Below are positions 201 to 24,402 of a DNA stretch of 64,000 nucleotides, one piece after another. Source of the stretch: Chamaelirium japonicum (Eukaryota > Streptophyta > Magnoliopsida > Liliales > Melanthiaceae); contig OX393555.1 of assembly GCA_947650365.1 (NCBI GenBank), forward strand, positions 80,977,995 to 81,041,994, in the 5' to 3' direction. Position numbers and translations under genes: made by a program. The notes below the pieces were generated by a model. It ran no database searches, was not told the origin of the DNA, and worked only from the letters and a program-made list of their open reading frames with translations. Every line of letters begins with the position of its first letter. The first letter of the stretch is position 1.

Positions 201-1701
201 TCTGCTCTCAATAGGGTAGGGGCCGGGTTTTAGAGAGAGAATCGAAGGGCTGCGTGTATGACCCGGACGACTGCATGGGTTTGGAAGAGATCAGGTGGTT
301 GGGTCTGAGAGAGAAAAGCAAGGATGAGAGATAGAAGATCGTTGAAGAGAGAGAGAAAAAGAAAGAGAATCTGAGAGAGAGGATCCCGGAGTGAGACTGG
401 ATACAGCTTGGTTCCCGATCGGGTCGGGCTAGGAGGGCTGATCAGGTAAGGGAGAGAGAGGAGTTCGGTTGAGAGAGAGAGAGAAAATCGGTGGAGGCTG
501 TACTCGGGTACATCTGGACGGCTCGAGAATGGAAGGAGATCCGGCTAGAGAGAGAAAATAGGAAACGGGAGAGAGCGTCTCGGGCTACAGCTGGTTCGGT
601 TTTGGGTTTTAGAGAGAGAAAAACAAGGAGGGAAGAGAGGAGAGTTCGGTGGGATCCGGTATGCTGGAGGGCTGCATGGCTCTGGGTGGTGGAGTGCTGG
701 GTTGCATGCGTTTTGCATTTGGATCGGACGGCTGTGATATGGGAATGAAACGTGGGAGTCCGAAGCTTGCTATCGGGTCGGGCCGAGGTTGATGCACGTG
801 ATGTAGAGGTGAAACGGGCGGCTGGAATTTGGACTCCGGATGGCCCATGCATACATTGTTGGTGGATGTGGCGAGGGGTTTGGAGGCACGACCGGTCGGT
901 TAGGGAATAGACGGCCAGGATTTGGATGCAATAGAGGGCTGTGATGGATCTCGATGGGGCGAGGTGCGGATCAAGTGGTGCTGGCCGGGTAGATTGGGTC
1001 CGAGAGGGATTCGTGTGCGATATGCTAAGGGACCTAGGTGATGCACTGCTACGATGGGCTTTGTAGTTGGAATAAGGTGCAGAGTGAAAACAACTAAATT
1101 AAAGACGGAAATAGAAGATGAAAAGGAAACGAAAAGAAAGAGAAAGAAAGATAGGAAGAGAACGATAGGCCGGCTTTGGTCACCATCATTTGAACTCATC
1201 ATCAAAACCCTCATCGCTCATTTGCATTCATGTAGTCACCTTCTGGTTCGAGTCATGCGCTGCAACAGCTTGTTGAATTCTTCACTCATCCGAATCATCG
1301 CAGTTATCCGTTTTCCAACGTTGTTCTTCAGACAGGCCTCCAACTAGCTGTACAGTCTCCATCAGATCGCCGTGAGAATATCCACGGCTTGGTCATGAAA
1401 TCCTTGAGCTGATTGCATCGAAAACCGGATAAATTCCCTGAAAAACACACATAAAATGACACTTATCAGATTCAAATGCGATTATCGATAAAAGGATAAT
1501 TTGGACTTTTGGGCTCTATATTTTTCATGCATGCAATGTATGAGAGCGAACCAATATGCCGTTGGGTTCGTATGAAAGTCTACTATATCATGGTGTAAAG
1601 AAACTCATGCAGTTTACGTGTATTATGAAAGTTTTACGTAAGAAACTGACGCTATGTGCATGATAAAGAAAGGATAATTCGCACCAAATGGACGCTCATC
1701 A
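201..1701. other. Unassigned purine-rich region upstream of the TNP2 homology
   Basis: I recognise no gene here. The first 900 bases are rich in GAGAGA tracts separated by short GC-rich pieces. The short open frames on both strands are low-complexity and resemble no family I know. 1360-1701 is ordinary AT-leaning sequence. Comparison with the second CACTA copy shows no similarity until about base 1702, where both read ATAGACTGCGGAAGGGTG. The CCGTCGG subterminal repeats expected at a CACTA 5' end are absent. This is therefore either flanking DNA or a captured or rearranged segment replacing the normal 5' end. Confidence 0.5.
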
Positions 1702-1716
1702 ATAGACTGCGGAAGG

Positions 1717-3684
1717 GTGATTAGGAATGTTCGAGAGGAATGTGAGGTTGATCTGGTAATGCGTGGCATTGACATTACCTATACCCGTTGGTTCTCGCAC
1801 GGTGAGGAGCTAGATGCAGTCCCTATGGCAGCTCACGGTGAAACTTCAAACACAGTGATCGCTGATGATAATATTAATACAGACGATGACGATGACATGC
1901 AGGGTATGATACATGATTTGCAAGGTGGAATAGGCACGGAAACACCGTCAGGTGATCAGCCCAATATCGAAGCGGACAAGTTCTACAGATTGCTTAAAGA
2001 TGCCGAACAACCTCTATACCCGGGGTGTGAGAAGTTTTCAAAACTCTCTTTCACTGTAAAGCTTCTTCATTTGAAGTGCCTCAATGGTTGGAGTAATAAG
2101 TCATTTAATATGTTGGTAGAGTTGCTGAAAGAGGCTTTTCCTATGGGTGAGACAGTACCGAAATCATTCTATGAGGCGAAGAAGACAATTAAAGATCTCG
2201 GTCTGGGTTATGAGAAAATTGATGCATGCGTGAACGATTGTATGTTGTACCGGAAAGAGTACGAACATGTGCGGTCATGCCATATATGCGGAGCAACGAG
2301 ATATAAAGAGACGGATGCCGAGTCTAGTACCAGTCGAAGGAAGAAAAATGTATCTGCAAAGGTTCTCCTATACTTCCCGCTCAGGGACAGGCTTCAGAGG
2401 TTGTTTATGTCATCGAAGACTGCTGAGCACATGAGGTGGCATGCACGAGAACGTACAGATGACGGGATTATGAGATATCCGGTCGACTCTCTGACGTGGA
2501 AAGATTTTGATCATACATATCCTGAATTCGCATGTGAAGTTCGCAACGTCAGGTTAGGGCTTGCTAGCGATGGCTTCAATCCCTTTGGGAATATGAGTGT
2601 GTCATACAGCATTTGGCCAGTTGTCCTAGTTCCATACAATTTGCCTCCCTGGATGTGCTTAAAAAAGCCATACACAATGCTCTCCTTGCTTATTCCTGGA
2701 CCCAGGTCGCCTGGTAATGATATTGACGTTTACTTGCAGCCGTTGATTGAGGAGTTAAACGAGTTATGGGAAGTTGGGGCCGATACGTATGATGCCTCGT
2801 TGCGCCAGAATTTTCGGATGCATGCGGCACTTCTATGGACCATCAACGATTTTCCTGCATATGCCAACTTATCCGGGTGGAGTACTAAAGGAAAATTGGC
2901 GTGCCCTACATGCAATAAGGAGACAGATTCATTATGGTTGAAGAACGGAGGCAAGTTCTGTTATATGGGCCATCGAAGATTCCTTGTTGATGGCCATAAG
3001 TGGAGGCAGAACAAAAAAGCTTTCAACGGCAAGAAGGAACTTGCAAAGGCCCAGGAGCAGCTTTCGGGGGTAGAAGTCTTGTGCGAATTGGATCAGCTTG
3101 ATGCCGTGGCACTTGGAAAAGGTAAAAAGAAGAGAACGAATGAAGATTCCACGCGTGAGCATAACTGGAAGAAGAAGCGTATTTTCTTTAAACTACCGTA
3201 CTGGAGCAGTCTACTCTTGCGGCATAACTTGGATGTCATGCATATCGAGAAAAATGTGTGTGACAACATTATAGGAACACTACTGAATCTCGACGGTAAG
3301 ACGAAGGATAATCTTAAATCTCGTCTCGATCTTAAGGAGTTGGGCATCCAAAAATCACTTCATCCCCAAGAGATTGGGGATAAGTATGTGTTACCAGTTG
3401 CATGCTACACCATGAGCTCACAGCAAAAGGCAGCCTTATGTGCATTCCTACGGTCTGTGAAAACGCCAGACGGTTATTCTTCGAATATCGCACGATGCGT
3501 GCAAGAGAACGGCCGGAAGTTGTCTGGATTAAAGAGCCACGATTGTCATATTCTTATGCAGCGATTGTTATCTCTTGCTATACGTGGGAATTTAACCGAA
3601 GAGGTGTCCGGTCCGTTAATTGAGCTCAGCACTTTTTTCAGACAGTTGTGCTCGAAGGTACTTAGAGTGGACCAACTTGAATAG
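1717..3684 (+). CDS. TNP2-like CACTA transposase, N-terminally truncated main exon
   Basis: This 655-residue frame is the catalytic transposase of a CACTA element, which binds the element ends and cuts and joins DNA in the nucleus. Residues 1-32 are the tail of the Transpos_assoc domain, ending in WFSHGE. An acidic linker follows (about 50-60, run of Asp). The TNP2/Transposase_21 core includes a Cys pair at 188-191, GLASDGFNPFG at 281-291, a second Cys pair at 396-399 and HNLDVMHIEKNVCDN at 503-517. SGLKSHDCHILMQ at 603-615 opens the DUF4218 region. The frame ends at a TAG (3682-3684), yet the family sequence continues in the same frame beyond it, so this stop is premature. Copy B has the same stop. 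The normal start lies in the missing first segment, so the methionine at 1717 is only the first one available. Confidence 0.85.
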   Translation: MIRNVREECEVDLVMRGIDITYTRWFSHGEELDAVPMAAHGETSNTVIADDNINTDDDDDMQGMIHDLQGGIGTETPSGDQPNIEADKFYRLLKDAEQPLYPGCEKFSKLSFTVKLLHLKCLNGWSNKSFNMLVELLKEAFPMGETVPKSFYEAKKTIKDLGLGYEKIDACVNDCMLYRKEYEHVRSCHICGATRYKETDAESSTSRRKKNVSAKVLLYFPLRDRLQRLFMSSKTAEHMRWHARERTDDGIMRYPVDSLTWKDFDHTYPEFACEVRNVRLGLASDGFNPFGNMSVSYSIWPVVLVPYNLPPWMCLKKPYTMLSLLIPGPRSPGNDIDVYLQPLIEELNELWEVGADTYDASLRQNFRMHAALLWTINDFPAYANLSGWSTKGKLACPTCNKETDSLWLKNGGKFCYMGHRRFLVDGHKWRQNKKAFNGKKELAKAQEQLSGVEVLCELDQLDAVALGKGKKKRTNEDSTREHNWKKKRIFFKLPYWSSLLLRHNLDVMHIEKNVCDNIIGTLLNLDGKTKDNLKSRLDLKELGIQKSLHPQEIGDKYVLPVACYTMSSQQKAALCAFLRSVKTPDGYSSNIARCVQENGRKLSGLKSHDCHILMQRLLSLAIRGNLTEEVSGPLIELSTFFRQLCSKVLRVDQLE

Positions 3685-4405
3685 ATGGAGAGGGATATTG
3701 CGCTCACATTGTGCAAGTTAGAGATGATATTTCCACCTTCCTTCTTTGATGTCATGGTGCATTTGACCGTTCACTTGGCAAATGAGGCCAAACTCGGCGG
3801 CCCAGTTCATTACCGGTGGATGTATTTTATCGAGAGGTAATCATCTCGTCTCATTCGCACAATGTATTTGATCGTTCTTGATATATTCATCCAAATATTT
3901 TTTTCTCAAATTAGGTACTTGAGAACATTGAAATCATATGTTCGTAATAAAAGTCGTCCGGAGGGATCAATTGCTGAAGGATACCTAGTAGAAGAATGTC
4001 TAACATTCTGCTCAAGATACCTACATGGTATAGACATGCGATTCAATCAACTTGAGCGAAACTATGACGGTGGTCCAATAGACTTCGATGGGGGTCTGTC
4101 TATATTTGCCGAAATGGGTAGACCTGTAGGAGGAGGCAAAACCCATCGATTGTCTGTAGATGAGATTCAACAGGCACATATATATGTGTTGCGCCAATGT
4201 GATGAAGTGTGGCCATTCATTGAGTAAGCATTTTACGATCATTTACTCATTCTTTCAGTCCATTCATTAAGTATATGTTCTAATTATAATCTAATTCATA
4301 ACCGGTAAAACAGGAAGCATAAAGCCATCATTAATAATCGGGGTACTCGAAATGCTCCCCAAATTCATGATCGTGAATTCCCATCGTGGTTCGAGAAATA
4401 TATAA
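3685..4405 (+). pseudogene. TNP2 C-terminal exons (DUF4218 region) after the premature stop
   Basis: Reading continues in frame past the TAG to about 3836, with MERDIALTLCKLEMIFPPSF and then a WMYFIER-type end. A GT donor at 3837 and an AG acceptor at 3913-3914 give a 78-bp intron. The next exon (3915-4223) carries RPEGSIAEGYLVEEC and CDEVWPF, both typical of DUF4218. A second intron is 4224-4313, followed by a short exon reading KHKAIINN and FPSWFEKY. The splice signals look intact. Its donor side before the DUF4216 exon is unclear: GTATTC near 4405 would give the wrong phase, so that junction is uncertain. Confidence 0.7.
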
Positions 4406-4493: not shown

Positions 4494-5168
4494 GCACAGG
4501 AGCTGCACGACAACCATGATCCGCTGATGAATGAGGATCTCTGGCGCTTATCTTGTAGTCCTTTGCAAGACGCAATATCGTACGATGGTTATATCGTGAA
4601 CGGTTATAGATTTCGGATGAAAGATAGTGAAAAATCACGAAGAACCCAAAATAGTGGGGTTGTCGTCAACGGTGAGCAAGAAGAATTAGAAAATATCGAC
4701 TTCTACGGCGTCCTCAACGAGATTCTCGAGCTTAAATTCTTTGGCCAAAATCGGATCGTATTATTCAAATGCGATTGGTATGATGTTAATAATCGCGGGA
4801 CTGGTTATAATGTCGACAAATACGGTTTTATCAGCATCAACACTGCCAAGAGATTGAATACCCAATATGAAGATCCATTCATTCTTGCCTCTCAAGCGCA
4901 ACAGATATTTTATGCACCGGATAATACCTCTCCAGGTTGGCAAATTGTAGTCAGGTCACCACCCAGAGATTTTTACGACATGGGAGACAAGGATGCGGGG
5001 GTCGTCGATGATGATTTGGATGCATACCAGAATGATGAGATAATCATTGTCGACGCAGTGCACGACGAAAATGAAGATGTCGACAATATAAACTGGACAG
5101 CGAATGCAGATCAAATAATAGAAGAGGGAAGCGATGAGAGTGACAGAGATGAGACAGAAATTGACTAG
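4494..5168 (+). CDS. DUF4216 domain exon of the TNP2-like transposase gene
   Basis: DUF4216 is found at the C terminus of many plant CACTA TNP2 transposases; its biochemical role is unknown. The exon follows an AG acceptor at 4492-4493. The first methionine in frame is at 4527 (MNEDLWRLSCSPLQ). Family features include DFYGVLNEILELKFF, NRIVLFKCDWYDV, YEDPFILASQAQQIFY and a PRDFYDM stretch. The tail is strongly acidic (many Asp and Glu from about residue 155 on) and ends at TAG 5166-5168. Copy B has the same exon (26521-27195). The sequence is open throughout, so this part is undamaged although the gene upstream carries a stop. Confidence 0.8.
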   Translation, partial: AQELHDNHDPLMNEDLWRLSCSPLQDAISYDGYIVNGYRFRMKDSEKSRRTQNSGVVVNGEQEELENIDFYGVLNEILELKFFGQNRIVLFKCDWYDVNNRGTGYNVDKYGFISINTAKRLNTQYEDPFILASQAQQIFYAPDNTSPGWQIVVRSPPRDFYDMGDKDAGVVDDDLDAYQNDEIIIVDAVHDENEDVDNINWTANADQIIEEGSDESDRDETEID

Positions 5169-5269
5169 ACCGTATGTAAATCAAATTGTTTCATATTTAA
5201 ATCAAATTGTTTCATATATAAATCATATTGTTTCATATGTATATCATATTGTTTCATATGTAAAACAAT
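5169..5269. repeat. Short AT-rich tandem repeat (GTTTCATAT units)
   Basis: Imperfect copies of a roughly 24-bp unit containing TTGTTTCATAT and GTAAATCA follow the transposase stop. The same kind of repeat lies at the equivalent place in copy B (26228-26520). In copy A the 181-bp satellite array begins inside this tract. Confidence 0.75.
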
Positions 5270-6339
5270 AAGTTAGCGTGTTTCGGATATGAAATAGGTT
5301 TGGATTCGATCCGATCGTCATCGGATCGGCATCCGATAATACGAAGTTGGAATTACTCCATATTTCGGACTTGCGAGCGGGTTCTAATTGGATATTTGAC
5401 CAATTTACGCTCCGATTCACCGATTTAGAGTCTAAGTGTTGGAAAATCATAAGTTAGCGTGTTTCGGATATGAAATAGGTTTGGATTCGATCCGATCGTC
5501 ATCGGATCGGCATCCGATAATTCGAAGTTGGATTTATTCCGTATTTCGGACTTACGAGCTGGTTCTAATTGGATATTTGACCAATTTATGCTCCGATTCA
5601 CCGATTTAGAGTCTAAGTGTTGGAAAATCATAAGTTAGCGTGTTTCGGATATGAAATAGGTTTGGATTCGATCAGATCGTCATTGGATCGGCATCCGATA
5701 ATTCGAAGTTGGATTTATTCCGTATTTCGAACTTGCGAGCGGGTTCTAATTGGATATTTGACCAATTTACGCTCCGATTCACCGATTTAGAGTCTAAGTG
5801 TTGGAAAATCATAAGTTAGCGTGTTTCGGATATGAAATAGGTTTGGATTCGATCCGATCATCATCGGATTGGCATCCGCTAATTCGAAGTTAGAATTATT
5901 CTGTATTTCGGACTTGCGAGCGGGTTCTAATTGGATATTTGACCAATTTACGTTCTGATTCACCGATTTAGAGTCTAAGTGTTGGAAAATCATAAGTTAG
6001 CGTGTTTCGGATATGAAATAGGTTTGGATTCGATCGGATCATCATCGGATCGGCATCCGGTAATTCGAAGTTGCAATTATTCCGTATTTCGGACTTGCGA
6101 GCGGGTTCTAATTGAGTATTTGACCAATTTACGCTCCGATTCACCGATTTAGAGTCTAAGTGTTGGAAAATCATAAGTTAGCGTGTTTCGAATATGAAAT
6201 AGGTTTTGATTCGATCCGATCGTCATCGGATCGGCATCCGATAATTCGAAGTTGGAATTATTCCGTATTTCGGACTTGCGAGCGGGTTCTAATTGGATAT
6301 TTGACCAATTTACGATCCGATTCACCGATTTAGAGTCTA
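5270..6339 (-). repeat. 181-bp satellite, short array (about six monomers, - orientation)
   Basis: Six monomers run in - orientation; equivalent points at 5450, 5631, 5812, 5993 and 6174 are exactly 181 bp apart. The last monomer breaks off in the middle of its GAGTCTA motif and the GTTTCATAT repeat resumes. The monomers are the same family as the long array at 8740-13693 but inverted relative to it. Copy B has no array at this site, so it was gained by copy A or lost from copy B. The 68-codon open frames in each monomer are a by-product of the repeat. Confidence 0.9.
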
Positions 6340-6500
6340 CGTGTTTCATATTGTTTCATATTGTTTCATATTGCGAGCGGGTTCATATTGTTTCATATTG
6401 TTTCATATATAAATCATACTGTTTCATATGTAAATAAAACTGTTCCATATTGTTTTATATATAAATCTTACTGTTTCATATGTAAATTAAATTATTTCAG
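6340..6500. repeat. AT-rich GTTTCATATTG repeats, continuation
   Basis: Degenerate tandem GTTTCATATTG and GTAAATAAAACTG units resume after the satellite array and end at an AG directly before the ATG of the next gene. The split of this tract by the satellite marks the array as an insertion or expansion within a pre-existing simple repeat. Confidence 0.7.
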
Positions 6501-8194
6501 ATGGCATCACGGTCTATGTTCGTAGAGGCAGAGGCAGAGGCAGGGGTGCTCGGAGCGCTCCGGCTGCCACCCCAGGGTCCGAGGCTGAGCCGTCCGGATC
6601 TGGTAGTGCTGTTCCTCTCTCCATACCAGCTCCTGCTGTGGTCGCAGCCTCCGGAGCTTCGAGCAGTGCTCAGCACTCGGCTACAGCGTCTACGCCCACA
6701 GGTAATGTTTAGATCTAAAGTTTTATACATGTTGTAAATACTTTTTCAGTACTGATGTATATTTTATTTGCAGGGTCGACCAGGCACATAGGCGATCGGG
6801 GCGTGACGACGGCCCGGCGCTTGTCGGCCTTACGCGAGCCGCTGCCCTTACAGTGGAGCGGCATGACCTTTGTGGGCGAGCACGCTTCTGACGCCGCCAC
6901 ATGGGTCGGCATGATAGTACGGGAGGAGAGGAATGCCCCGATTGTGGGGTTAAGGGGGTGGAAGAATATTGATGCATCCTATAAGGAGAGGATGTATCAG
7001 CAGTTTTTGGTACGTTAGTTTCATTAAAGCATTTTAGAATAATATCGTACTTCTTTATAATTTGATTTGATAAAATGACTTGTTTCTAAATTGATTTTAC
7101 AGGAGAAATTTAAATGGGAGAACATAGAAACCGACACCCATCGGGAGGACTTGTTGAAGATGATGGGTGAGCGGTACAGGGATTACCGTCACGAGCTCTA
7201 CAAGCTCTACGGTTACTTGGTCGGCCAGTCGGCTGAGGAGGTACAGGCTGCGGCCGGGACGAGAGACGCGCCACCGCTACACATTCTACAGTTTTTGGTC
7301 GCTCACTGGGCCACCCGTAGCTTTCAGGTATAATTATAATTTTGTTGATTCGTACTTGTTTTAATGTTATACTAAAAATTTGTATTGATGTTTCAAAATT
7401 TAATCGATTGACACAGGCGAAATCTGCTACAGGCAAGCAGAATAGAAGTGCCTCGACGACACCTGCTCCAGTGAAGGGGTGGACCTCAATGCCCCAGCTT
7501 GCCCAGCAGCTGGTAAATGATACAAACATTGTTATTATTTAAAGTTCTATACATGTTATATTAACTCATCTATTTATTTTATATGTCCAACAGACACAGT
7601 CCTTGGGCCACGAGCCTAATAGGATTGACCTTTTTGAGGCCTCTAGGAGGCGGCATATCGATGTGGCATTTCTGGACGACAGGGTTGCCTCGCAAGTGGT
7701 AAGTAATTAAATTACTGTTAATATATTCTTATACATATGCCATAAAATATCATTGAATATCATTGGTTGTTTTTATATAGGAGAGGATGCGACTTCTGGT
7801 GACCCCGTCGGGCGAGGCCGGCTCCTCCTCCAGCTCAGTATCTGTCGACTCAGCGATGGATACTGTGCTGAGACCTGCCACGCACGGCCGTGTCCTCTGT
7901 ACGGGCCTTGGAGTGACGCCCTCCTCCTACTTTGGACGAGAGGGTATGCGCTCGAGGGCACGGGACACCCAGACCGGTGCTATCACTCAGCTGCAGTCTG
8001 CGCTAGACGCGGAGCGAGAGTAGAGGCAGGCCCTCGAGCAGATGATGGAGGCGGAGCGAGAGCAGAGGCAGGCCCTCGAGCAGAGGGTTGAGGCGGAGAA
8101 GAAGGCCCTCGATGAGGAAAGAGAAGCTCGCAGGGAACTGGATCATAAATTTAATGAATTCATAAGCCGGTCTAGCGATGGCTCATCCTCATGA
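6501..8194 (+). pseudogene. Transposase_24 (Ptta/En/Spm-type) second gene of CACTA copy A, six exons
   Basis: This matches the second gene of plant CACTA elements, thought to bind subterminal repeats or assist transposition. Exons by GT-AG signals: 6501-6701, 6774-7009, 7103-7327, 7417-7512, 7594-7698 and 7781-8194. Exon 1 should encode an Arg-Gly-rich start followed by an Ala/Ser/Pro-rich linker, but compared with copy B one base is missing near 6514, shifting the frame. Exon 2 holds the conserved QWSGMTFVG and MIVREERNAPIV; exon 3 KFKWENIETDTHREDL and YKLYGYLVG; exon 5 a DLFEASRRRHIDVAFLDD type motif. Exon 6 ends in a coiled coil built from a duplicated 42-bp (14-residue) unit, AEREQRQALEQ. 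A TAG at 8021-8023 replaces a Gln codon in the first unit. The normal stop is TGA 8192-8194. Copy B lacks that TAG but has another, so the lesions arose independently. Confidence 0.75.
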
Positions 8195-8404
8195 TCAGGT
8201 ACTTACTAATCTTTATAATATTAGCAAAAAATATGAATCTTACTAATTTGAGTTTAGATCATATTATCACACTTATGATTTTCCAACACTTAGATTCTAA
8301 ATCGGTAAATCGGATTATAAATGGTCTCTCTCTCTCTTTCATGGTAATGATGTAGCCTATGTTTTTCTTTTAAATTATAGAATTTTGTTTTTTAATCATG
8401 CTAG
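8195..8404 (+). other. Probable intron between the Transposase_24 stop and the ARGONAUTE exon
   Basis: A GT donor lies at 8199 (CAGGTACTT), four bases past the stop codon, and an AG acceptor at 8403-8404. If used, this makes a 206-bp intron in the 3' untranslated part of the Transposase_24 transcript and joins it to the ARGONAUTE-derived exon. Inside is a fragment of the 181-bp satellite (8268-8322) and a short CT run. Confidence 0.45.
8268..8322 (+). repeat. Solitary 181-bp satellite fragment
   Basis: About 55 bp match the start of the satellite monomer: ATGATTTTCCAACACTTAGA and the AAATCGGT block, followed by an ATTATAAATGG ending. It lies alone, 0.4 kb before the long array and in the same orientation. 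Copy B has the same fragment in the equivalent place (24403-24456), so it predates the split of the two copies. Confidence 0.8.
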
Positions 8405-8518
8405 GTGTGTGCCTCGTTGGAAGAGGGATATCTCCCTCATGTGACATTTGTAGTGGACACAACAATATGCCACCCAACGGAGTTCGATTTCTATCTCTGC
8501 AGTTATGCTGGCATACAG
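8405..8518 (+). pseudogene. Captured exon fragment of an AGO1/MEL1-like ARGONAUTE gene (PIWI domain)
   Basis: Translated from the AG acceptor, the 38 codons read [11 protein letters not shown], then a VTFVV block, then [18 protein letters not shown]. These are the conserved PIWI-domain segments of plant AGO1-clade proteins, which slice RNA guided by small RNAs. The fragment begins after an AG and ends before GT (8519), both in phase 0, as expected from AGO1-type gene structure. About 30 residues normally between VTFVV and the HPTEF motif, including the QKRHHTRLF stretch, are missing, with the join at repeated Val codons. It cannot encode a working ARGONAUTE. It lies in sense orientation downstream of the Transposase_24 stop. 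Family assignment is from remembered motifs, not a search. Confidence 0.85.
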
Positions 8519-8739
8519 GTAAACTTTGACTGAAGCTTTGTAAATGTAAATTATTTTAAATTCACTCATGCAATTGGTACTTTTTACGATTATACGAAGA
8601 GAATTAATTATAAGGATTATACCAATTGCATGAGTGAAGGGGTGTAATTGTAAGGATTTTCAAACTAGAGGGGGACATTTTTAAAACTAATCAAAGTCAA
8701 ACGTAAGATATTATATTGGGGAAAATTACAAAAACCTAT
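8519..8739. other. Non-coding stretch with an inverted repeat before the satellite array
   Basis: Intron-like sequence follows the ARGONAUTE donor site. 8562-8580 (TTCACTCATGCAATTGGTA) and 8619-8637 are inverted copies, able to form a stem of about 18 bp with a 38-base loop. Copy B keeps only one arm (near 24150-24170) and diverges beyond it. No coding potential seen. Confidence 0.6.
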
Positions 8740-11700
8740 TTCATATCCGAAACACGCTAAGTTATCGGATGCCGATCCGATGACGATCGGATCGAATCCA
8801 AACCTATTTCATATCCGAAACACGCTAGCTTATGATTTTCCAACACTTGGACTCTAAATCGGTGAATCGGAATGTAAATTGGTCAAATACTCAATTAGAA
8901 CCCGCTCGCAAGTCCGAAATACGGAATAATTCTAACTTCGAATTATCGGATGCCGATCCGATGACGATCGGATCGAATCCTAACCTATTTCATATCCGAA
9001 ACACGCTAACTTATGATTTTCCAACACTTAGACTCTTAATCCGTTAATCGGAGCGTAAATTGGTCAAATACTCAATTAGAACCCGCTCGCAAGTCCGAAA
9101 TACGGAATAATTCCAACTTCGAATTATCGGATGCCGATCCGATGACGATCAGATCGAATCCAAACCTATTTCATATCCGAAACACGCTAACTTATGATTT
9201 TCCAACACTTAGACTCTAAATCGGAGAATCGGAGCGTAAATTGGTCAAATATCCAATTAGAACCCGCTCGCAAGTCCGAAATATGGAATAATTCCAACTT
9301 TGAATTACCGGATGCTGATCCGATGACGATCGGATCGAATCCAAACCTATTTCATATCCGAAACACGCTAACTTATGATTTTCCAACACTTAGACTCTAA
9401 ATCGGTGAATCGGAGCGTAAATTGGTCAAATATCTAATTAGAACCCACTCGCAAGTCCGAAATACGGAATAATTCCAACTTCGAATTACCGGATGCCGAT
9501 CCGATGACGATCCGATCGAATCCAAACCTATTTCATATCCGAAACTCGCTTACTTATGATCTTCCAACACTTAGACTCTAAATCTGTGAATCGGATCGTA
9601 AATTGGTCAAATATCCAATTAGAACCCGCTCGCAAGTCCGAAATACGGAATAATTCCAAGTTGGAATTAACGGATGCCGATCCGATGACGATCGGATCGA
9701 ATCCAAACCTATTTCATATCCGAAACAATCTAACTTATGATTTTCCAACACTTAGACTCTAAATCGGTGAAGCGGAGAGTAAATTGGTCAAATATCCAAT
9801 TAGAACCCGCTCGCAAGTCCGAAATATGGAATAATTCCAAGTTGGAATTATCGGATGCCGATCCGATGATGATCGGATCGAATCGAAACCTATTTCGTAT
9901 CCGAAACACGCTAACTTATGATTTTCCAACACTTAGACTCTAAATCGGTGAATCGGAGCGTAAATTGGTCAAATATCCAATTAGAACCCGCTCGCAAGTC
10001 CGAAATATGGAATAATTCCAACTTCGAATTACCGGATGCCGATCCGATGACGATCCGATCGAATCCAAACCTATTTCATATCCGAAACACGCTTACTTAT
10101 GATTTTCCAACACTTAGACTCTAAATCGGTGAAGCGGAACGTAAATTGGTCAAATATCCAATTAGAACCCGCTCGCAAGTCCGAAATATGGAATAATTCC
10201 AAGTTCGAATTATTGGATGCCGATCCGATGACGATCGGATCGAATCCAAACCTATTTCATATCCGAAACACGCTAACTTATGATTTTCCAATACTTAGAC
10301 TCTAAATCGGTGAATCGGAACATAAATTGGTCAAATATCCAATTAGAACCCGCTCGCAAGTCCGAAATACGGAATAATTCCAACTTCGAATTACCGGATG
10401 CCGATCCGATGACGATCGGATCGAATCCAAACCTATTTCATATCCGAAACACGCTAACTTATGATTTTCCAACACTTAGACTCTAAATCGGGGAATCGGA
10501 GCGTAAATTGGTCAAATATCCAATTAGAATTCGCTCGCAAGTCCGAAATACGGAATAATTCCAAGTTCGAATTATCGGATGCCGATCGGATCGAATCCAA
10601 ACCTATTTCATATCCGAAACACGCTAACTTATGATTTTCCAACACTTAGACTCTAAATCGGTGAATCGGAGCGTAAATTGGTCAAATATCCAATTAGAAC
10701 CCGCTCGCAAGTCCGAAATACGGAATAATTCCAACTTCGAATTACCAGATGCCGATCCGATGACGATCGGATCGAATCCAAACCTATTTCATATCCGAAA
10801 CACGCTAACTTATGATTTTCCAACACTTAGACTCTAAATCGGTGAATCGGAGCGTAAATTGGTCAAATATCAAATTAGAACCCGCTCGCAAGTCCGAAAT
10901 ACGGAATAATTCCAAGTTCGAATTATCGGATGCCGATCCGATGATGATCCGATCGAATCCAAAACTATTTCATATCCGAAACACGCTAACTTATGATTTT
11001 CCAACACTTAGACTCTAAATCGGTGAATCGGAGTGTAAATTGGTCAAATATCCAATTAGAACCCGCTCGCAAGTCCGAAATATGGAATAATTCCAACTTC
11101 GAATTACCGGATGCCGATCCGATGACGATCGGATCGAATCCAAACCTATTTCATATCCGAAACACGCTAACTTATGATTTTCCAACACTTAGACTCTAAA
11201 TCGATGAATCGGAGCGTAAATTGGTCAAATATCCAATTAGAACCCGCTCGCAAGTCCGAAATACAGAATAATTCCAACTTCAAATTATCGGATGCCGATC
11301 TGATGATGATCCGATCGAATCCAAACCTATTTCATATCCGAAACACGCTAACTTATGATTTTCCAACACTTAGACTCTAAATCGGTGAATCGGAACGTAA
11401 ATTGGTCAAATATCCAATTAGAACCCGTTCGTAAGTCCGAAATACGGAATAATTCCAAGTTCGAATTATCGGATGCCGATCCGATGATGATCCGATCGAA
11501 TCCAAACCTATTTCATATCCGAAACACGCTAACTTATGATTTTCCAACACTTAGACTCTAAATCGGTGAATCGGAGCGTAAATTGGTCAAATATCCAATT
11601 AGAACCCGCTCGCAAGTCCAAAATACGGAATAATTCCAACTTCGAATTACCGGATGCCGATCCGATGACGATCGGATCGAATCCAAACCTATTTCATATC

Positions 11701-13693
11701 CGAAACACGCTAACTTATGATTTTCCAATACTTAGACTCTAAATCGGTGAATCGGAGCGTAAATTGGTCAAATATCCAATTAGAATCCGCTCGCAAGTCC
11801 GAAATACGGAATAATTCCAAGTTCGAATTATCGGATGCCAATCGGATCGAATCCAAACCTATTTCATATCCGAAACACGCTAACTTATGATTTTCCAACA
11901 CTTAGACTCTAAATCGGTGAATCGGAGCGTAAATTGGTCAAATATCCAATTAGAATCCGCTCGCAAATCCGAAATATGGAATAATTCCAACTTCGAATTA
12001 CCGGATGCCGATCCGATGACGATCGGATCGAATCCAAACCTATTTCATATTAGAAACACGCTAACTTATGATTTTCCAACACTTAGACTCTAAATCGGTG
12101 AATCGGAGCGTAAATTGGTCAAATATCAAATTAGAACCCGCTCGCAAGTCCGAAATACGGAATAATTCCAAGTTCGAATTATTGGATGCCGATCCGATGA
12201 TGATCCGATCGAATCCAAACCTATTTCATATCCGAAACACGCTAACTTATGATTTTCCAACACTTAGACTCTAAATCGGTGAATCAGAGCGTAAATTGGT
12301 CAAATATCCAATTAGAACCCGCTCGCAAGTCCGAAATACGGAATAATTCCAACTTCGAATTACCGGATGCCGATCCGATGACGATCGGATCGAATCCAAA
12401 CCTATTTCATATCCGAAACACGCTAACTTATGATTTTCCAACACTTAGACTCTAAATCGGTGAATCGGAGCGTAAATTGGTCAAATATCCAATTAGAACC
12501 CGCTCGCAAGTCCGAAATACGGAATAATTCCAACTTCGAATTATCGGATGCCGATCTGATGACGATCCGATCGAATCCAAACCTATTTCATATCCGAAAC
12601 ACGCTAACTTATGATTTTCCAACACTTAGACTCTAAATCGGTGAATCGGAACATAAATTGGTCAAATATCCAATTAGAACCCGCTCGCAAGTCCGAAATA
12701 CGGAATAATTCCAAGTTCGAATTATCGGATGCCGATCCGATGACGATCGGATCGAATCCAAACCTATTTCATATCCGAAACACGCTAACTTATGATTTTC
12801 CAACACTTAGACTCTAAATCGGTGAATCGGAACGTAAATTGGTCAAATATCCAATTAAAACCCGCTCACAAGTCCGAAATACGGAATAATTCCAACTTCG
12901 AATTACCGGATGCTGATCCGATGACGATCGGATCGAATCCAAACCTATTTCATATCCGAAACACGCTAACTTATGATTTTCCAACACTTAGACTCTAAAT
13001 CGGTGAATCGGAGCGTAAATTGGTCAAATATCCAATTAGAATCCGCTCGCAAGTCCGAAATACGGAATAATTCCAAGTTCGAATTATCGGATGCCGATCG
13101 GATCGAATCCAAACCTATTTCATATCCGAAACACGCTAACTTATGATTTTCCAACACTTAGACTCTAAATCGGTGAATCGGAGCATAAATTGGTGAAATA
13201 TCCAATTAGAACCCGCTCGCAAGTCCGAAATACGGAATAATTCCAACTTCGAATTACCGGATGCCGATCCGATGACGATCGGATCGAATCCAAACCTATT
13301 TCATATCCGAAACACACTAACTTATGATTTTCCAACACTTAGACTCTAAATCGGTGAATCGGAGCGTAAATTGGTCAAATATCAAATTAGAACCCGTTCG
13401 CAAGTCCGAAATACGGAATAATTCCAAGTTCGAATTATCGGATGCCGATCCGATGATGATCCGATCGAATCCAAACCTATTTCATATCCGAAACACGCTA
13501 ACTTATGATTTTCCAACACTTAGACTCTAAATCGGTGAATCGGAGCGTAAATTGGTCAAATATCCAATTAGAACCCGCTCGCAAGTCCGAAATACGGAAT
13601 AATTCCAACTTCGAATTATCGGATGCCGATCCGTTCGAATCCAAACCTATTTCAAAATCGAAACACGCTAACTTATCATTTTTTAACGCTTAG
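8740..13693 (+). repeat. 181-bp satellite, long array with a 7-monomer higher-order repeat
   Basis: Twenty-seven monomers start at 8832, 9013, 9194 and so on, every 181 bp, with a partial one before. Three monomers (10461, 11717, 12973) are 170 bp long, having lost 11 bp. They are exactly 1,256 bp apart (6 x 181 + 170). Other private variants recur at the same spacing, for instance the one reading SNIK at 10812, 12068 and 13324, and the DADLM variant at 11174 and 12430. So two complete and one partial higher-order unit run from 10461 to the end. Each monomer holds a hairpin, CGATCCGAT-GACG-ATCGGATCG. The last monomer loses part of its end and stops at a GCTTAGACTCA boundary shared with copy B. 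All 68-codon frames here result from 181 not being divisible by three. Confidence 0.95.
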
Positions 13694-14144: not shown

Positions 14145-14694
14145 CTTATTACCGACAAAAATTAATTATTCCGTCGGTAATAATATTTTTATTTTTTTAA
14201 ATTATTAATAATGTGCCGACGGCATATAATATCCGTCGGTAATATATATATTATTACCGACGGGTAATATATATATACGTCGGTAATATATATAGTATTA
14301 CCGACGGTTATATAAATTTTGTCGGTAATATATATATTATTACCGACGGGTAATATATATATGTGTCGGTAATATATATAGTATTACCGACAATATAGAC
14401 TATACCCGTCGGTAAAATGGTTATATATTACCGACGGATTATTATGTTTCGTCGGTAATACTATATTATATTAGTTTTTAATTGATTAAATATTACCGAC
14501 GGCTTTAATATTACCGTCGGTAGTAATTATTATTACCGACGGTAATATTTGGTCCGTCGTATTGTTTTCCCCGACGCCTTCTTTCCCGACAGCCAGCGAC
14601 GGAAATATCTTCCGTCGCTATATAACATTACCGACGGAATTTTAATATTACCGACGGCTATTGTTCGTCGGTAATAACTGTTTTTTTTGTAGTG
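14145..14694. repeat. CACTA right subterminal repeats and terminal inverted repeat (copy A)
   Basis: More than twenty copies of TTACCGACGG and its complement CCGTCGGTAA lie in both orientations; in CACTA elements such motifs bind the element's own protein. A perfect palindrome AGCGACGGAA-ATATC-TTCCGTCGCT sits near 14590-14614. The terminus reads CTGTTTTTTTTGTAGTG and ends at 14694. The next three bases, GTA, may be one copy of a 3-bp target duplication, but the matching left flank is not visible. Confidence 0.9.
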
Positions 14695-16214
14695 GTACCC
14701 CACCCTAAAGGGGTCGTATATTATTTATTGGGTAAGCTTACTTAGGGCCTAAACAATCTATAAGAAACCCTAATCCATGGGAAAAGAGAGAAAAGAATAG
14801 AGAGATTTAATTATATTATTGAGAAGTAGAGTTTTAGAATTTAGATTCCTTCTTACTTTATAGCTATACCTGTCGTGAATGGACTGGAGCTGGATTTCTT
14901 CTCTCTTTGTTTATCTCTCTGTTGTCTTCTCTCTTCTTCGATTTTCTCACACGGGTATCGATATGAAGTAAGAAGGAATCTAAATTCCAAAACTCCACAG
15001 AATAGAGAGAAGAGAACGGAGAGATAAATGAAGAGAGAAGAGAGAAGAAGTCCTGCTCCAGTCCATTGGTCACGGGTATAGGTGTGAAGTAAGAAGGAAT
15101 CTAAATTCCAAAACTCCACTTCTCAATTTTTATACGACCCCTTTAGGGTGGGGCATGTTTGACGGCTCTTTCTTTCTCTAACTTCTGTCTTTGTTGCTCT
15201 CTCCGTTTTCTTGTAACTGGTCGACTGGGCTCCATATATTCGTGCTGATAATGTGTTGTGAGATGGGAGAAAGAGAGAGCAGTCAAACATGCCCCACCCT
15301 AAAGGGGTCGTATATTATTTATTGGGTAAACTTACTTAGGGCCTAAGTAATCTATAAAAAACCCTAATCAATGGGAGAAGAGAGAAGAGAACAGGAAGAT
15401 TTAATTATATTATTAAGAAGTGGAGTTTTGGAATTAAGATTCATTCTTACTTCACATCTATACCTGTGGCCAATGGACTGGAGCAGGACTTCTTCTCTCT
15501 TCTCTATTCGTTTATCTCTTCATTCTCTTCTCTCTTCTTCTTTCTCTTCTGTCTTTGTTTCTCTCTCTATTTTCTTGTGACTCAGCTGGGCTAGACATAG
15601 TCATGCTAATAACGTGTTGTGAGATGGGAGAAAGAGAGAGCCGTCAAACTTGCCCCACTATTAAGGGGTAGTATAAATTTTGAGAAGTAGAGTTTTGGAA
15701 TTTAGATTCCCTCTTACTTCACACCTATACCCATGGCCAATGGACTGGAACTGGACTTCGAAGTGAGAAAAGAGAAGAAGTCCTGCTCCAGTCCATTAGC
15801 CACGGGTATAGGTGTGAAGTAAAAAGGAATCTAAATTCCAAAACTCTAAAGAAGAGAGATTAGAAGAGATAAAAGAACGGAAAGATAAATGAAGATACTA
15901 TTGAGAAGTGGAGTTTTGGAATTTAGATTCCTTCTTACTTCACACCTATACCCGTGGCGAATGGACTTGAGAAGAACTTCTTCTCTCTTCTCTCTCAATA
16001 TTTATTTAATTAGTTTATTTTATATTATTAATATTAAAAAAATAATTAAATAACTAGATAATTAAATAATTAAATAAATTAATTATTTTACTAAAAACCT
16101 AATTATTAAATTATTTAAATTATTAAATAATTTAAACAAATATAGAAGAGAGAAGAAGCCCTGCTCCAGTCCATTCTCGACGGGTATAGGTATGAAGTAA
16201 GAAGAAATATAAAT

Positions 16215-16380
16215 TCCAAAACTCCACTTCTCAATAGTATCATCTCGTTATTTTGATTATCATAGTAAATTCTCTTCTCTCTTCGTTTTAATTAAATGAT
16301 TAATTTAATTAAAAAATATATAGTAACATTACTATGATAATCATAATAACTTTAAGATGATACTATTGAGAAGTGGAGTT
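16215..16380. repeat. AT-rich foldback block
   Basis: The left arm (CTCCACTTCTCAATAGTATC onwards, through GATTATCATAGTAA) is mirrored by the right arm (TTACTATGATAATCATAATA through GATACTATTGAGAAGTGGAG). Arms of about 50 bp flank a short CT-rich and AT-rich centre. The flanking LTR-like units are in opposite orientations on the two sides. Confidence 0.75.
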
Positions 16381-18174
16381 TTAGAATTTAGATTCCTTCT
16401 TACTTCACACCTATACCCGTACGTGGCCATTGGACTCAAGCAGGACTTCTTCTCTCTTTTCTCTTTGTTTATCTCTCCATTCTCTTATATCTTCTCTCTT
16501 CTTCTCTCTCTTCTGTCTTCGTTTCCCTTTCCGTTTTCTTGTGACTGGTTGGATGGGCTCGACATATTCATGTTGATAACATGTTATGAGATGGGAGAAA
16601 TAGAGCCATCAAACGTGCCTACCGTAAAGGGGTCATATATTATTTATAGGGTATGCTTACTTAGGGCCTCAGGAATTTATGGAAAACCCTAATCCATGGG
16701 AGAAGAGAGAAGAGAACGGAGAGATTTAATTATATTATTGAGAAGTGAAGTTTTAGAATTTAGATTTCTTCTTACTTTACACCTATACCCGTGGCCAATG
16801 GACTAGAGCAGGACTTCTTCTCTCTTCTATCATCGTTTATCTATCTGTTCTCTTCTCTCTTCTTCTCTCTCTTCTGTCCTCGTTTCTTTCTCTATTTTTT
16901 TGCGACTGGTCGGCTGGGCTCGACATGTTCATGCTAGTAACGTGTTGTGAGATGAGAGAAGAATAGAGAAAAGAACAGAGAGATAAACGAAGAGAGAAGA
17001 GATAAGAAGTCCTGCTCCTGTCCATTCACCATGGGTATAGGTGTAAAGTAAAAAGGAATCTAAATTCCAAAACTCCGCTTCTTAATATTTATACAACCCC
17101 TTTAGGGAGAAGCATATTTGATAGCTCTCTCTTTCTCTCATATCACAACACATTATCAGCACGTATATGTTGATCCCAGCCGACCAATCACAAGAAAACG
17201 GATAAAGAAACGAAAACAGAAGGGAGAGAACAAGAGAGAAGAGAACGGAGAGATAAACAAAGAGAGAAGAGAGAAGAAGTCATGCCCGAGTCCATTGGCC
17301 ATGGGTACAGGTAAGAAGTAAGAAGGAATCTAAATTCAAAAACTCTATTTCTAAATAATATAATTAAATCTCTTTGTTCTCTTCTCTTTTCTCCTATGGA
17401 TTAGGGTTTCCTATAGATTTCTTAGACCCTAAGTAAGCTTACCCTATAAATAATATACGACTCCTTTAGGGTGGGTCACATTTGACGGCCCTCTATTTCT
17501 CCCATCTCATAACATATTATTAGCACGAACATGTCGAGACCATATGACCAGCCTCAAGAAAACAGAGGGAGAAATAAAGACAAAAGAGAGAGAAAAAGAG
17601 AGAAGAGAATGGAGAGATAAACAAAGAGAGAAAAGAGAAGAAGTCCTGCTCAATTCCATTAGCCACGGGTATAGGTGTGAGGTAAGAAAGAATCTAAATT
17701 CAAAAACTCCACTTCTATCTTCGATTCTCTCTCTATTTTCTTGTGACTGGTCGGTTGGCCTCGATATGTTCGTGCTGATAACGTATTATAAAATGGGAGA
17801 AATAGAGAGTTACCAAATGTGCCCCACCCAAAAGGAGTCGTATATTATTTATAGGGTAAGCTTACTTAGGGCCTAACCAACCTATGAAAAACCCTAATCT
17901 ATGGGAGAAAATAGAAGAGAACGAAGAGATTTAATTATATTATTTAGAAATGGAGTTTTGGAATTTAGATTTCTTTTTACTTCACCCCTATACCCGTGGC
18001 CAATGGACTGTAGCAGGACTTCTTCTCTCTTCGTTTATCTCTCCGTTCTTTTCTCTCTTCTTCTATCTCTTCTATCTTCGTTTCTCTCTCCGTTTTCTTG
18101 CGACTGGTCGGCTGGGCTCAAATGTTCGTGCTGATAACGTGTTATGAGATGGGAGAAAGAGAGAGCCATCAAAA

Positions 18175-18490
18175 CTCTACTTCTCAATAGTATTATCTCA
18201 ATGTTATTATGATTATCATGGTAATGTTACAATAATTTTTTAATTAAATAAATTATTTATTAAATAATTTAATAATTAAGTTTTTGGTAAAATAATTAAT
18301 TTATTTAATTATTTAATTATCTAGTTATTTAATTAAAATTTATTGTTTTATGTATTTATTATTATTATATTATTTAATAATTAAATTAGGTAACTATTTA
18401 ATTATTTAAATTATTAAATAGAGAAATAATGATTTTAAAAAATTAAATAAATTATAAAATATTTAATTATAAAATATTACAACTTTTAAT
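18175..18490. repeat. AT-rich block, partial copy of the foldback family
   Basis: Begins with the same CTCTACTTCTCAATAGTATT end and GATTATCATGGTAA block as the foldback element, then runs through TTAATTATTTAATTA repeats. The opposite arm is missing. It joins ACAACTTTTAATAGATC before the next LTR-like piece. Confidence 0.6.
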
Positions 18491-18813
18491 AGATCATTCG
18501 ATCGGATGGCTGTCCACCGTCGGATCTCTCCTGTAGATTAGGGTTTTCCATAGATTGCTTAGGCCCTATGTAATTTTACCCTATAAATAATATACGACCC
18601 ATTTAGAGTGGGGCACGAACATATCGATCTCAGTAGACTTATTCATTGGCCACGGGTATAGGTATAAAGTAAAATAATTAAATTAAAATAACTAATTACT
18701 TATTTAATAACTAATTAGGGCTGACCAGTCATTCGATCGGATGACTATCCATCATCGAATCTCTCCCATGGATTAGGGTTTCCCATATATTGCTTAATAC
18801 CTAAGTAAGCTTA

Positions 18814-19300
18814 AGCTACAAAAAAAACAGTTATTACCGACGGACAATATCCGTTGGTAATATTAAAATTTCGTCGGTAATATTTTATAGCGGCGGAAGA
18901 TATTTCCGTCGCTGGCTGTCGGGAAAAAAGGTGTCGGGGAAAACATTACGACGGACCAAATATTACCGTCGGTAATAATAATTAATACCGACGGTAATAT
19001 TAAAGCCGTCGGTCATATTTAATCAATTAAAAATTAATATAATATATTATTGCCGACGAAACTTAATAGTCCGTCGGTAATATATAAGCATTGTACCGAC
19101 GGTTATGGTATGTCCCGTCGGTAATACTGTATATATTACCAACGGATATATATGTCCCGTCGGTAATAATATATATATATTACCGACGGGTATTATATAC
19201 CGTCGGCAAATTATTTATAATTTAAAAAAAAATGAAAATATTATTACCGACGGAACAATTAATTTCCGTCGGTAATAAGTATGTTTTTTTTTTTTAATAA
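18814..19300. repeat. CACTA 3' terminal and subterminal repeats (copy B)
   Basis: CTACAAAAAAAACAGTTATT leads into many TTACCGACGG and CCGTCGGTAA motifs in both orientations, ending in a poly-T run near 19287-19298. The palindrome GGCGGAAGATATTTCCGTCG (18892-18911) corresponds to the one in copy A, with one change (GGCGG for GACGG). Confidence 0.85.
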
Positions 19301-19545
19301 ATTTACCTAAATAATGTTATTTAATTCCTGTGATTTACAACAATACCACAATATATTACCACAATTTATCAAATATTACCACAATTTATAAAATATTACC
19401 GCAAATTTTAAAATATGACCTAAATTGATAACAAGTTACAGCAAATTATCAAATATTGCCACAGTACCCGACAATTATAGACAAGAACAAAAAATAACCA
19501 CATATTACAAAATAATATTTACACAATCCAAAACTAAGAGATGAT
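19301..19545. other. AT-rich tract, counterpart of 13876-14144
   Basis: Copies of CAAATATTACCACAATTTAT-like units, then CAAGAACAAAAAATAACC. It is colinear with copy A and has no coding sequence. Confidence 0.6.
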
Positions 19546-19690: not shown

Positions 19691-19734
19691 TAACATGTAT
19701 TTGTTAAAAAAATGGTTTATACCTATAACTGAGT

Positions 19735-22700
19735 CTAAGCGTTAAAAAATGATAAGTTAGCGTGTTTCGGTTTTGAAATAGGTTTGGATTCGATCGGATC
19801 GGCATCCGATAATTCGAAGTTGGAATTATTCTGTATTTCGGACTTGCGAGCAGGTTCTAATTGGATATTTGACCAATTTACGCTCCGATTCACCGATTTA
19901 GAGTCTAAGTGTTGGAAAATCATAACTTAGCGTGTTTCAGATATGAAATAGGTTTGGATTCGATCCGATCGTCATCGGATCGGCATCCGATAATTCAAAC
20001 TTGGAATTATGCCGTATTTCGGACTTTCGAGCGGGTTCTAATTGGATATTTGACCAATTTACGATCCGATTCACCGATTTAGAGTCTAAGTGTTGGAAAA
20101 TCATAAGTTAACGTGTTTTGGATATGAAATAGGTTTGGATTCGATCAGATCGGCAATGGATCGGCATCCGATAATTCGAAGTTGGAATTATTCCGTATTT
20201 CGGACTTGCGAGCGGGTTCTAATTGGATATTTGACCAATTTACGCTCCGATTCACCGATTTAGAGTCTAAGTGTTGGAAAATCATAAGTTAGCGTGTTTC
20301 GGATATGAAATAGGTTTGGATTCGATCCGATCGTCATCGGATCGGCATCCGATAATTCGAACTTGGAATTATTCCGTATTTCGGACTTGCGAGCGGGTTC
20401 TAATTGGATATTTGACCAATTTACGATCCGATTCACCGATTTAGAGTCTAAGTGTTGGAAAATCATAAGTTAACGTGTTTCGGATATGAAATAGGTTTGG
20501 ATTCGATCGGATCGGCAACGGACCGGCATCCGATAATTCAAACTTGGAATTATTCCGTATTTCGGACTTGCGAGCGGGTTCTAATTGGATATTTGACCAA
20601 TTTACGCTCCGATTCACCGATTTAGAGTCTAAGTGTTGGAAAATCATAAGTTAGCGTGTTTCGGATATAAAATAGGTTTGGATTCGATCCGATCGTCAAT
20701 GGATCGGCATCCGATAATTCGAACTTGGAATTATTCCATATTTCGGACTTGCGAACGGGTTCTAATTTGATATTTGACCAATTTACGCTCCGATTCACCG
20801 ATTTAGAGTCTAAGTGTTGGAAAATCATAAGTTAGCGTGTTTCGGATATGAAATAGGTTTGGATTCGATCCGATCGTCATCGGATCGGCATCCGATAATT
20901 CGAACTTGGAATTATTCCGTATTTCGGACTTGCGAGCGGGTTCTAATTGGATATTTGACCAATTTACGATCCGATTCACCGATTTAGAGTCTAAGTGTTG
21001 GAAAATCATAAGTTAACGTGTTTCGGATATGAAATAGGTTTGGATTCGATCGGATCGGCAACGGATCGGCATCCAATAATTCGAAGTTGGAATTATTCCA
21101 TATTTCGGACTTGCGAGCGGGTTCTAATTGGATATTTGACCAATTTACGCTCCGATTCACCGATTTAGAGTCTAAGTGTTGGAAAATCATAAGTTAGCAT
21201 GTTTCGGATATGAAATAGGTTTGGATTCGATCCGATCGTCATCGGATCGGCATCCGATAATTTGAACTTGGAATTATTCCATATTTCGGACTTGCGAGCG
21301 GGCTCTAATTGGATATTTGACCAATTTACGATCCGATTCACCGATTTAGAGTCTAAGTGTTGGAAAATCATAAGTTAACGTGTTTCAGATATGAAATAGG
21401 TTTGGATTCGATCGGATCGGCATCTGATAATTCGAACTTGGAATTATTCCGTATTTCGGACTTGCGAGCGGGTTCTAATTGGATATTTGATCAATTTACG
21501 CTCCGATTCACGGATTTAGAGTCTAAGTGTTGGAAAATCATAAGTTAGCGTGTTTCAGATATGAAATAGGTTTGGATTTGATCCGATCGTTAACGGATCG
21601 GCATCCGATAATTTGAAGTTGGAATTATTCCGTATTTCGGACTTGCGAGCGGGTTCTAATTGGATATTTGACCAATTTACGCTCCGATTCACCGATTTAG
21701 AGTCTAAATGTTGGAAAATCATAAGTTAGCATGTTTCGGATATAAAATAGGTTTGGATTCGATCCGATCGTCATCGGATCGGCATCCGATTATTCGAACT
21801 TGGAATTATTCCATATTTCGGACTTGCGAACGGGTTCTAATTGGATATTTGACCAATTTACGATCCGATTCACCGATTTAGAGTCTAAGTGTTGGAAAAT
21901 CATAAGTTAACGTGTTTTGCAACGGATCGGCATCCGATAATTCGAAGTTAGAATTATTCCGTAATTCAGACTTGCGAGCGGGTTCTAATTGGATATTTGA
22001 CCAATTTACGCTCCGATTCACCGATTTAGAGTCTAAGTGTTGGAAAATCATAAGTTAGCGTGTTTCGGATATGAAATAGGTTTGGATTCGATCCGATCGT
22101 CAACGGATCGGCATCCGATAATTCGAATTTGGAATTATTCCGTATTTCGGACTTGCGAGCGGGTTCTAATTGGATATTTGACCAATTTACGCTCCGATTC
22201 ACCGATTTAGAGTCTAAGTGTTGGAAAATCATAAGTTAGCGTGTTTCGGATATGAAATAGGTTTGGATTCAATCGGATCGGCATCCGATAATTCGAACTT
22301 GGAATTATTCCGTATTTCGGACTTGCGAGCGGGTTCTAATTGGATATTTGACCAATTTACGCTCCGATTCACCGATTTAGAGTCTAAGTGTTGAAAAATC
22401 ATAAGTTAGCGTGTTTCGGATATGAAATAGGTTTGGATTCGATTCGATCGGCAACGGATCGGCATCCGATAATTCGAAGTTGGAATTATTCCGTATTTCG
22501 GACTTGCGAGCGCGTTCTAATTGGATATTTGACCAATTTACGCTCCGATTCACCGATTTAGAGTCTAAGTGTTGGAAAATCATAAGTTAGCGTATTTCGG
22601 ATATGAAATAGGTTTGGATTCGATCGGATCGGCATCCAATAATTCGAACTTGGAATTATTCCATATTTCGAACTTGCGAGCGGGTTCTAATTGGATATTT

Positions 22701-24103: not shown

Positions 24104-24210
24104 GTCTTGAGTCATTTATGCACATAAATAAATTATTATCCATAAAAAGTACCAATTGCATGAGTGAATTTAAAATAATTTGCACTTACAAAGATTCAGT
24201 CAAAGTTTAC
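24104..24210. other. Short non-coding spacer with one arm of the copy A inverted repeat
   Basis: Contains ACCAATTGCATGAGTGAATT, matching one arm of the 8562-8637 inverted repeat of copy A; the other arm is absent. Confidence 0.5.
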
Positions 24211-24324: not shown

Positions 24325-24402
24325 CTAGCATGATTAAAAAATAAAATTCGATCATTTAAAAGAAAAACAGAGGCTACATCATTACTATGAGAGAGAGAGA
24401 GA

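Follow-up and report, generated by a model that had tools for sequence, protein, structure and literature searches.

The window analysed here is a 64,000-nucleotide stretch of a 1.52-Gb genome (G000:C7:80977995-81041994), and all searches for a source gene and for further copies were run within that genome. It contains two related transposon copies, A on the plus strand and B inverted. Copy A carries a tnp2 transposase open reading frame of 668 aa (1681-3684; Transposase_21, 5.8e-99), followed on the same strand by a DUF4218 exon (3841-4227), a DUF4216 exon (4494-5168) and a second gene in exons that is TNP1/Transposase_24-like (6719-8194). The Transposase_24 label, carried over from a preliminary description of this DNA, is tentative, as it scored 18 bits against a cut-off of 28.7 and single pieces of the gene gave no such match. 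There is an in-frame TAG at 8021-8023, so the second gene of copy A looks broken. The CACTA terminal repeat ...TTTTTTGTAGTG marks the 3' end of copy A at 14683-14694 on the plus strand; the scan gave this end only (14694), and a 5' end of copy A was not found. The surroundings are rich in repeats. Subterminal tandem repeats of 181 bp occupy 5142-6463 and 19732-24181, with inverted partners at 8759-13273; the families listed have 29 to 30 register copies. Mutually related repeats lying in either orientation are dense at 14700-19500 and 42800-64000, measure about 150 bp to more than 2 kb among the matches listed, and hold scraps of open reading frame such as KKTEGEIKTKEREKERR. Inverted copy B encloses a Copia-type open reading frame (32640-36269) whose 1,209 aa include RVT_2 and integrase domains.

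Just 3' of the stop codon of the TNP1-like gene, and in sense with the transposon genes as previously described, lies the feature of interest (8405-8518). It had been presented as a PIWI exon of an ARGONAUTE (AGO) gene, captured by a CACTA transposon and present in both copies. The PIWI part of this claim holds: when its translation was searched against PDB sequences, 24 of the 25 chains listed were argonautes, led by AtAGO10 (7sva, E 3.5e-12), the exception being FimU at E 0.75. Pfam returned Piwi as the only family, with an E value of 2.2e-4 and 21 bits, below the curated cut-off of 28.9. The claim of one exon does not stand. Because the alignment to AtAGO10 breaks into two blocks, at residues 817-835 and 862-885, we rejected a single intact exon and read the stretch as parts of two exons, fused, of 52 and 62 nt: the 5' part of exon c (8405-8456, from the translation and a DNA match to bases 6813-6864 of the source gene at locus L009, introduced below) and the 3' part of exon d (8457-8518, from the AtAGO10 alignment and a DNA match to L009). 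The deletion that joins them spans L009 6865-7041, a length of 177 bp with GTGG microhomology at both ends, and takes out 96 coding bases while keeping the reading frame. The AG and GT dinucleotides that border the exon parts in phase 0, also noted previously, are the acceptor of source exon c and the donor of source exon d. They sit in captured AGO intron, which matches L009 on both sides (8319-8404 with the AG acceptor and 8519-8604 with the GT donor, both on the plus strand). At 8319 the intron meets partial subterminal-repeat sequence (8271-8318) in a secondary junction, AAATGGTC, identified from the sequence and by a genome-wide pattern; the same left flank is seen at loci L063 and L064.

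Copy B indeed carries the fragment too. The fused exon parts lie there on the minus strand (24211-24324), within an AGO-derived stretch with intron flanks that matches the source gene at the DNA level (24134-24402), and bases 24324-24214 are 96.4% identical to copy A over 111 nt. The AGO span is restricted to L009 6737-7189 in copy A and to 6739-7179 in copy B, and both copies show the left-hand junction of a single secondary insertion.

The parent gene that the preliminary description had proposed seeking in the same genome was found: at C2:90.73 Mb lies L009, an AGO gene that looks intact and is one of 35 Piwi matches. ArgoN, PAZ and Piwi pieces were recognised in five of nine single stretches of this gene, three of these five scoring below cut-off; of the other four stretches, three gave no match and one a weak unrelated match. 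Its PIWI exons, once joined, give an open frame that aligns end to end with AtAGO10 (E 6.2e-98). The preliminary description had seen hallmarks of AGO1-clade proteins in the fragment. The source gene differs from AtAGO10 and is distinct from the AGO1/AGO10-like loci L006 and L008, with an exon-c piece that has 76.6% amino acid identity to L008 over 47 aa. Beside grass sequences it looks like a putative member of the AGO5/MEL1 group. Copy A matches it at 91.7% over L009 6737-6864 (132 nt) and 92.9% over 7034-7189 (156 nt), introns included. A chance or motif-only AGO match was rejected, as the homology runs on into introns on both sides. Since the introns match as well, genomic DNA must have been captured, and a retrocopy was likewise rejected. 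Across all copies the captured region is L009 6386-7415, about 1,030 bp, comprising introns and exons b, b2, c and d.

With L009 6300-7500 as query, the genome gave at least 71 matches (40 of 671 candidates scored). We examined 35 copies, namely 33 loci and the two in the window, and found four forms. The undeleted form of about 1,030 bp is present at L024-L030 and, as variants, at L031-L033; the ten loci treated as undeleted thus include L031 and L033, which are cut, and L032, which has a partial duplication. The 177-bp-deletion form is found at 18 loci (L011, L012, L037-L052) and in window copies A and B, another deletion at L034-L036, and a short form at L053 and L054. Flanking sequence was assessed for 41 loci. 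In 29 of these, tnp2 sequence abuts the start of the AGO piece (9/10 undeleted or variant, 18/18 deleted non-autonomous, 2/3 other-deletion, 0/2 short and 0/8 hairpin-bearing loci). The AGO DNA joins tnp2 at the equivalent of about base 2426 of copy A in these non-autonomous copies, with TGA microhomology (...GACTGC-TGA-TCCGGTATG). At the eight hairpin-bearing loci, which include window copy A (L055), the piece is located 3' of the end of the TNP1-like gene instead, and L056-L062 are 94.6-98.6% identical to copy A in this region. At L063 and L064 the passed AGO piece has subterminal-repeat sequence on both flanks, as expected for templated insertion in a repeat.

Genome-wide pattern counts, made with up to two mismatches and with every reversed-pattern control at zero, gave 30 primary tnp2-AGO junctions, 203 deletion junctions and 544 secondary repeat-AGO junctions; these sets overlap, and for the larger ones the first 100 places were listed. 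The secondary pattern covers just twelve or so bases of AGO intron, so 544 is a number of pattern matches, and the junction was present in all nine fetched loci checked (L056-L064). The undeleted exon-d acceptor was counted 27 times, once in the source gene itself. The TNP1-bearing CACTA family is very large, with 1,475 matches to the TNP1-end pattern, more than twice the number of secondary junctions, which suggests that most TNP1-bearing copies are without the AGO piece. Going by these pattern counts, the piece appears to have multiplied mainly after its second move.

The scan for CACTA...TAGTG ends with a 3-bp target duplication covered 12 long loci and recovered complete AGO-bearing elements at four: L011 (42-9322, CTT/CTT), L012 (1847-9859, TAA/TAA), L016 (2148-9118, ACA/ACA) and L017 (2118-8579, TAA/TAA). 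At the other eight, both ends with a matching duplication were not seen within the fetched stretch. These ends and duplications, together with the tnp2-type transposase of copy A, are the marks of CACTA (En/Spm) elements, and the earlier claim of capture by a CACTA family is borne out. The homology to L009 6386-7415 also places host gene DNA between the ends, as in Pack-CACTA and other Pack-TYPE elements, whose CACTA-type ends (CACTACAA...) are given in the available excerpts of PMC8903248 and PMC13317346; L011, L012, L016 and L017 fit this description, with their 3-bp duplications. In PMC8903248, a Pack-TYPE element counts as autonomous if BLAST finds over 250 bp of transposase match in it. 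The tnp2 pieces in our non-autonomous loci measure 81 to 150 bp (first 45 of 78 matches listed), so these loci would qualify as non-autonomous, and their elements conform to the Pack-CACTA type. By contrast, window copy A is unlike a Pack-CACTA element in that it keeps transposon genes, the 668-aa tnp2 frame and the TNP1-like gene, and in that its AGO piece would be second-hand, from a non-autonomous sibling.

The order of events was addressed with trees and diagnostic bases. In a tree of the AGO-derived stretch, window copies A and B fall within the clade of the 177-bp deletion (aLRT 95.5, UFBoot 98). When seven further hairpin loci were added, the resulting tree nested the hairpin clade (92.7/94) in a deletion crown (94/96), outside which the non-autonomous copies L011 (72.8/85) and L012 (77.6/78) branch. 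Many inner branches of both trees have support below 50, which counts against the scheme we prefer. At three sites L011 and L012 retain the base of the source gene; the 16 other deleted loci all have one derived base (with one gap at one site), and that same base is found in 8 or 9 of 9 TNP1-type copies. One additional site sets the 18 deleted and the 9 TNP1-type copies, without exception, apart from the source gene and from 7/7 undeleted copies. From the derived bases and the nesting, the deletion most likely arose in the non-autonomous elements and was then passed to TNP1-bearing ones. A second, independent 177-bp deletion between the identical short repeats is a remote possibility. One might also suppose that the window elements took their AGO piece directly from the host gene, with no non-autonomous sibling involved, as their flanks do differ (a TNP1 end and repeats, and no tnp2). 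We find this scarcely credible, given that the window copies carry the deletion and the derived bases of the non-autonomous copies and nest among them.

We then considered whether the captured exons could be retained for a protein. In undeleted and variant copies, divergence is 1111/14490 (0.077) in exons and 1646/24822 (0.066) in introns; in deleted copies the values are 843/36873 (0.023) and 1678/86788 (0.019). Compared with the source gene, the exons of non-autonomous copies differ by 0.036-0.056 and the introns by 0.076-0.079, and this closeness of exons is what would be expected if only the source gene were constrained. Relative to the majority base of the copies there are 92 nonsynonymous and 35 synonymous unique changes and 8 stops. 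Of the 28 non-autonomous copies, 9 contain stops (7/10 undeleted or variant and 2/18 deleted ones); the five in L033 come after a frame change. Several observations count against a mere passenger: the per-site ratio of nonsynonymous to synonymous changes is 0.78 against the majority base and 0.70 against the source gene rather than 1 (raw values, uncorrected for transition bias or relatedness), copies A and B and 16/18 deleted non-autonomous copies have an open fused frame, all 30 copies checked (28 non-autonomous plus A and B) retain an intact exon-c acceptor, and the 177-bp deletion is, by happenstance, in frame. On balance the copies show no clear coding constraint, and a protein role of the AGO sequence is unlikely.

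A specific version of such a role would be coding exaptation, in which the AGO exons are spliced into transposon or host mRNA to give a functional PIWI-tail peptide, for example a decoy. The retained splice dinucleotides and the open frame in copies A and B speak for it. In soybean, CACTA elements reportedly carry pieces of genes that undergo alternative splicing (Zabala and Vodkin, 2007); these resemble our case in that the element contains exons of the host whose splice sites could be used, splicing here being predicted. The fragment in the window, however, lies 3' of the TNP1 stop, and nearly a third of the non-autonomous copies carry stops. As read from the sequence, the tnp2 frame also runs across the join into exon b in a frame other than that of AGO, and exon b2 then brings it to a stop; an AGO-peptide chimera starting from tnp2 was rejected for this reason. 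We regard coding exaptation as very improbable.

Instead, we consider it about 80% probable that the AGO piece is a passenger transduplicate that has moved twice. Four steps are legible in the sequences. About 1,030 bp of AGO genomic DNA first joined a CACTA tnp2 gene at TGA; the non-autonomous elements so formed multiplied; the 177-bp deletion then fused exons c and d; and a smaller piece of this deleted form ended up within the subterminal repeats after the TNP1-like gene of gene-bearing elements and multiplied there. Both joins probably formed during break repair, through microhomology or templated filler, transposase from the coding elements would have spread both forms, and the AGO sequence would have no protein role, although it may be transcribed, may be spliced into the 3' part of a TNP1-like RNA and may feed siRNAs. 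This reading is argued for by the source gene and its intron homology, the tnp2 left flank (29/41) and TNP1 end (8/41) with the TGA microhomology, the complete CACTA ends (4/12), the junction counts (30, 203 and 544), the tree nesting, the diagnostic bases, the exon divergence that is not below that of introns, and the stops.

A regulatory role was weighed separately. Next to the exon parts in copy A is a hairpin (8561-8638, plus strand) whose left arm is AGO intron and whose right arm contains an inverted copy of 19 nt of that intron. The fold of 8556-8643 has an energy of -33.1 kcal/mol and a z-score of -9.9 (-9.8 on the minus strand); an equivalent fold is lacking in the source gene (z -0.7) and in the deleted copy L038 (z -1.0), and copy B has neither the inverted 19-nt piece nor the hairpin. 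The right-arm pattern occurs 41 times genome-wide, 32 of them exact. A search against Rfam gave no miRNA family at cut-off, the best reaching 27.1 of 89 bits, and the miRNA look-alikes among the 13 Rfam matches were rejected as sub-threshold. In every one of the 35 copies, 16 or more 21-mers are also present in the spliced exons of the source gene, and window copies A and B each have 51 nt of exact match; five other AGO loci tested have at most 15 nt in common with the four copies tested. Given these 21-mers, small-RNA crosstalk between the AGO copies and the source gene is possible, by analogy with rice miR820 and DRM2.

The copies could then constitute an anti-silencing device, in which small RNAs from the captured exons or the hairpin lower the host AGO gene, whether through cleavage or through methylation of source exon d and its intron, and so ease the silencing of the transposon. 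The selective 21-mer sharing, the strong hairpin with its AGO-intron arm and its recurrence, and the many copies all favour this. So does a precedent: according to the excerpted text of PMC3459959, miR820-bearing CACTA elements of rice act on OsDRM2. As there, we have a CACTA element that holds exonic and intronic sequence from a silencing gene of its host, several copies and a fold-back derived from the target gene; the donor here is an ARGONAUTE, pattern counts reach the hundreds, both arms of the hairpin are intronic, and small RNAs acting on the gene are putative. However, those arms match the AGO intron only and not the mRNA, the 19-nt inverted piece could be a repair scar, no Rfam miRNA reached cut-off, exonic parts drift as introns do, and the junction and TNP1-end counts suggest that most family members lack the piece. 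Such a device is unlikely on this evidence. A bolder form, in which the CACTA family made a reproductive-type AGO its counter-silencing target and the piece moved on from defective elements into coding ones owing to the help it gave them, with exon c/d siRNAs and intron hairpin RNAs from hundreds of copies dampening or methylating the source gene, seems to us rather improbable. An AGO-regulating role of the copies is thus a low-probability reading beside that of a twice-moved passenger. In maize, captured fragments in Helitrons, Pack-MULEs and Sireviruses are described as siRNA sources for their donor genes in the available parts of PMC13317346 and PMC8616336. Those fragments are likewise pieces of genes borne by transposons, of sufficient length for siRNAs to be shared with a donor, but in the present case the donor belongs to RNA silencing itself, and siRNA sharing is predicted from shared 21-mers.

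Host-gene capture by CACTA elements is known, and the present case is a variant in its silencing-effector donor, in the second move into gene-bearing elements and in its copy number. In the open-licence literature searched, available to us partly as excerpts, we found no report of captured AGO sequence in CACTA or other transposons. A captured piece moving from non-autonomous to gene-bearing elements is indicated, a route not described in the excerpts consulted of three papers on gene capture (PMC13317346, PMC8903248, PMC8616336). For this transposon family with a piece of a host silencing effector, the source, both joins, the step order and controls with and without the piece are all in one genome, which makes the miR820-type question of whether a capture is helpful or accidental directly testable.

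At a grass substitution rate of 1.3e-8 per site per year, the 6.6% intron divergence between undeleted copies would give a rough age of 2-3 million years. The AGO parts of the short-form copies L053 (C5:72.1 Mb) and L054 (C9:59.9 Mb) have zero differences across 525 compared positions, suggesting recent spread. Both adjoin telomere-like repeats of the TTTAGG type, and seven loci tied in score at this short form in the search with L009 6300-7500.
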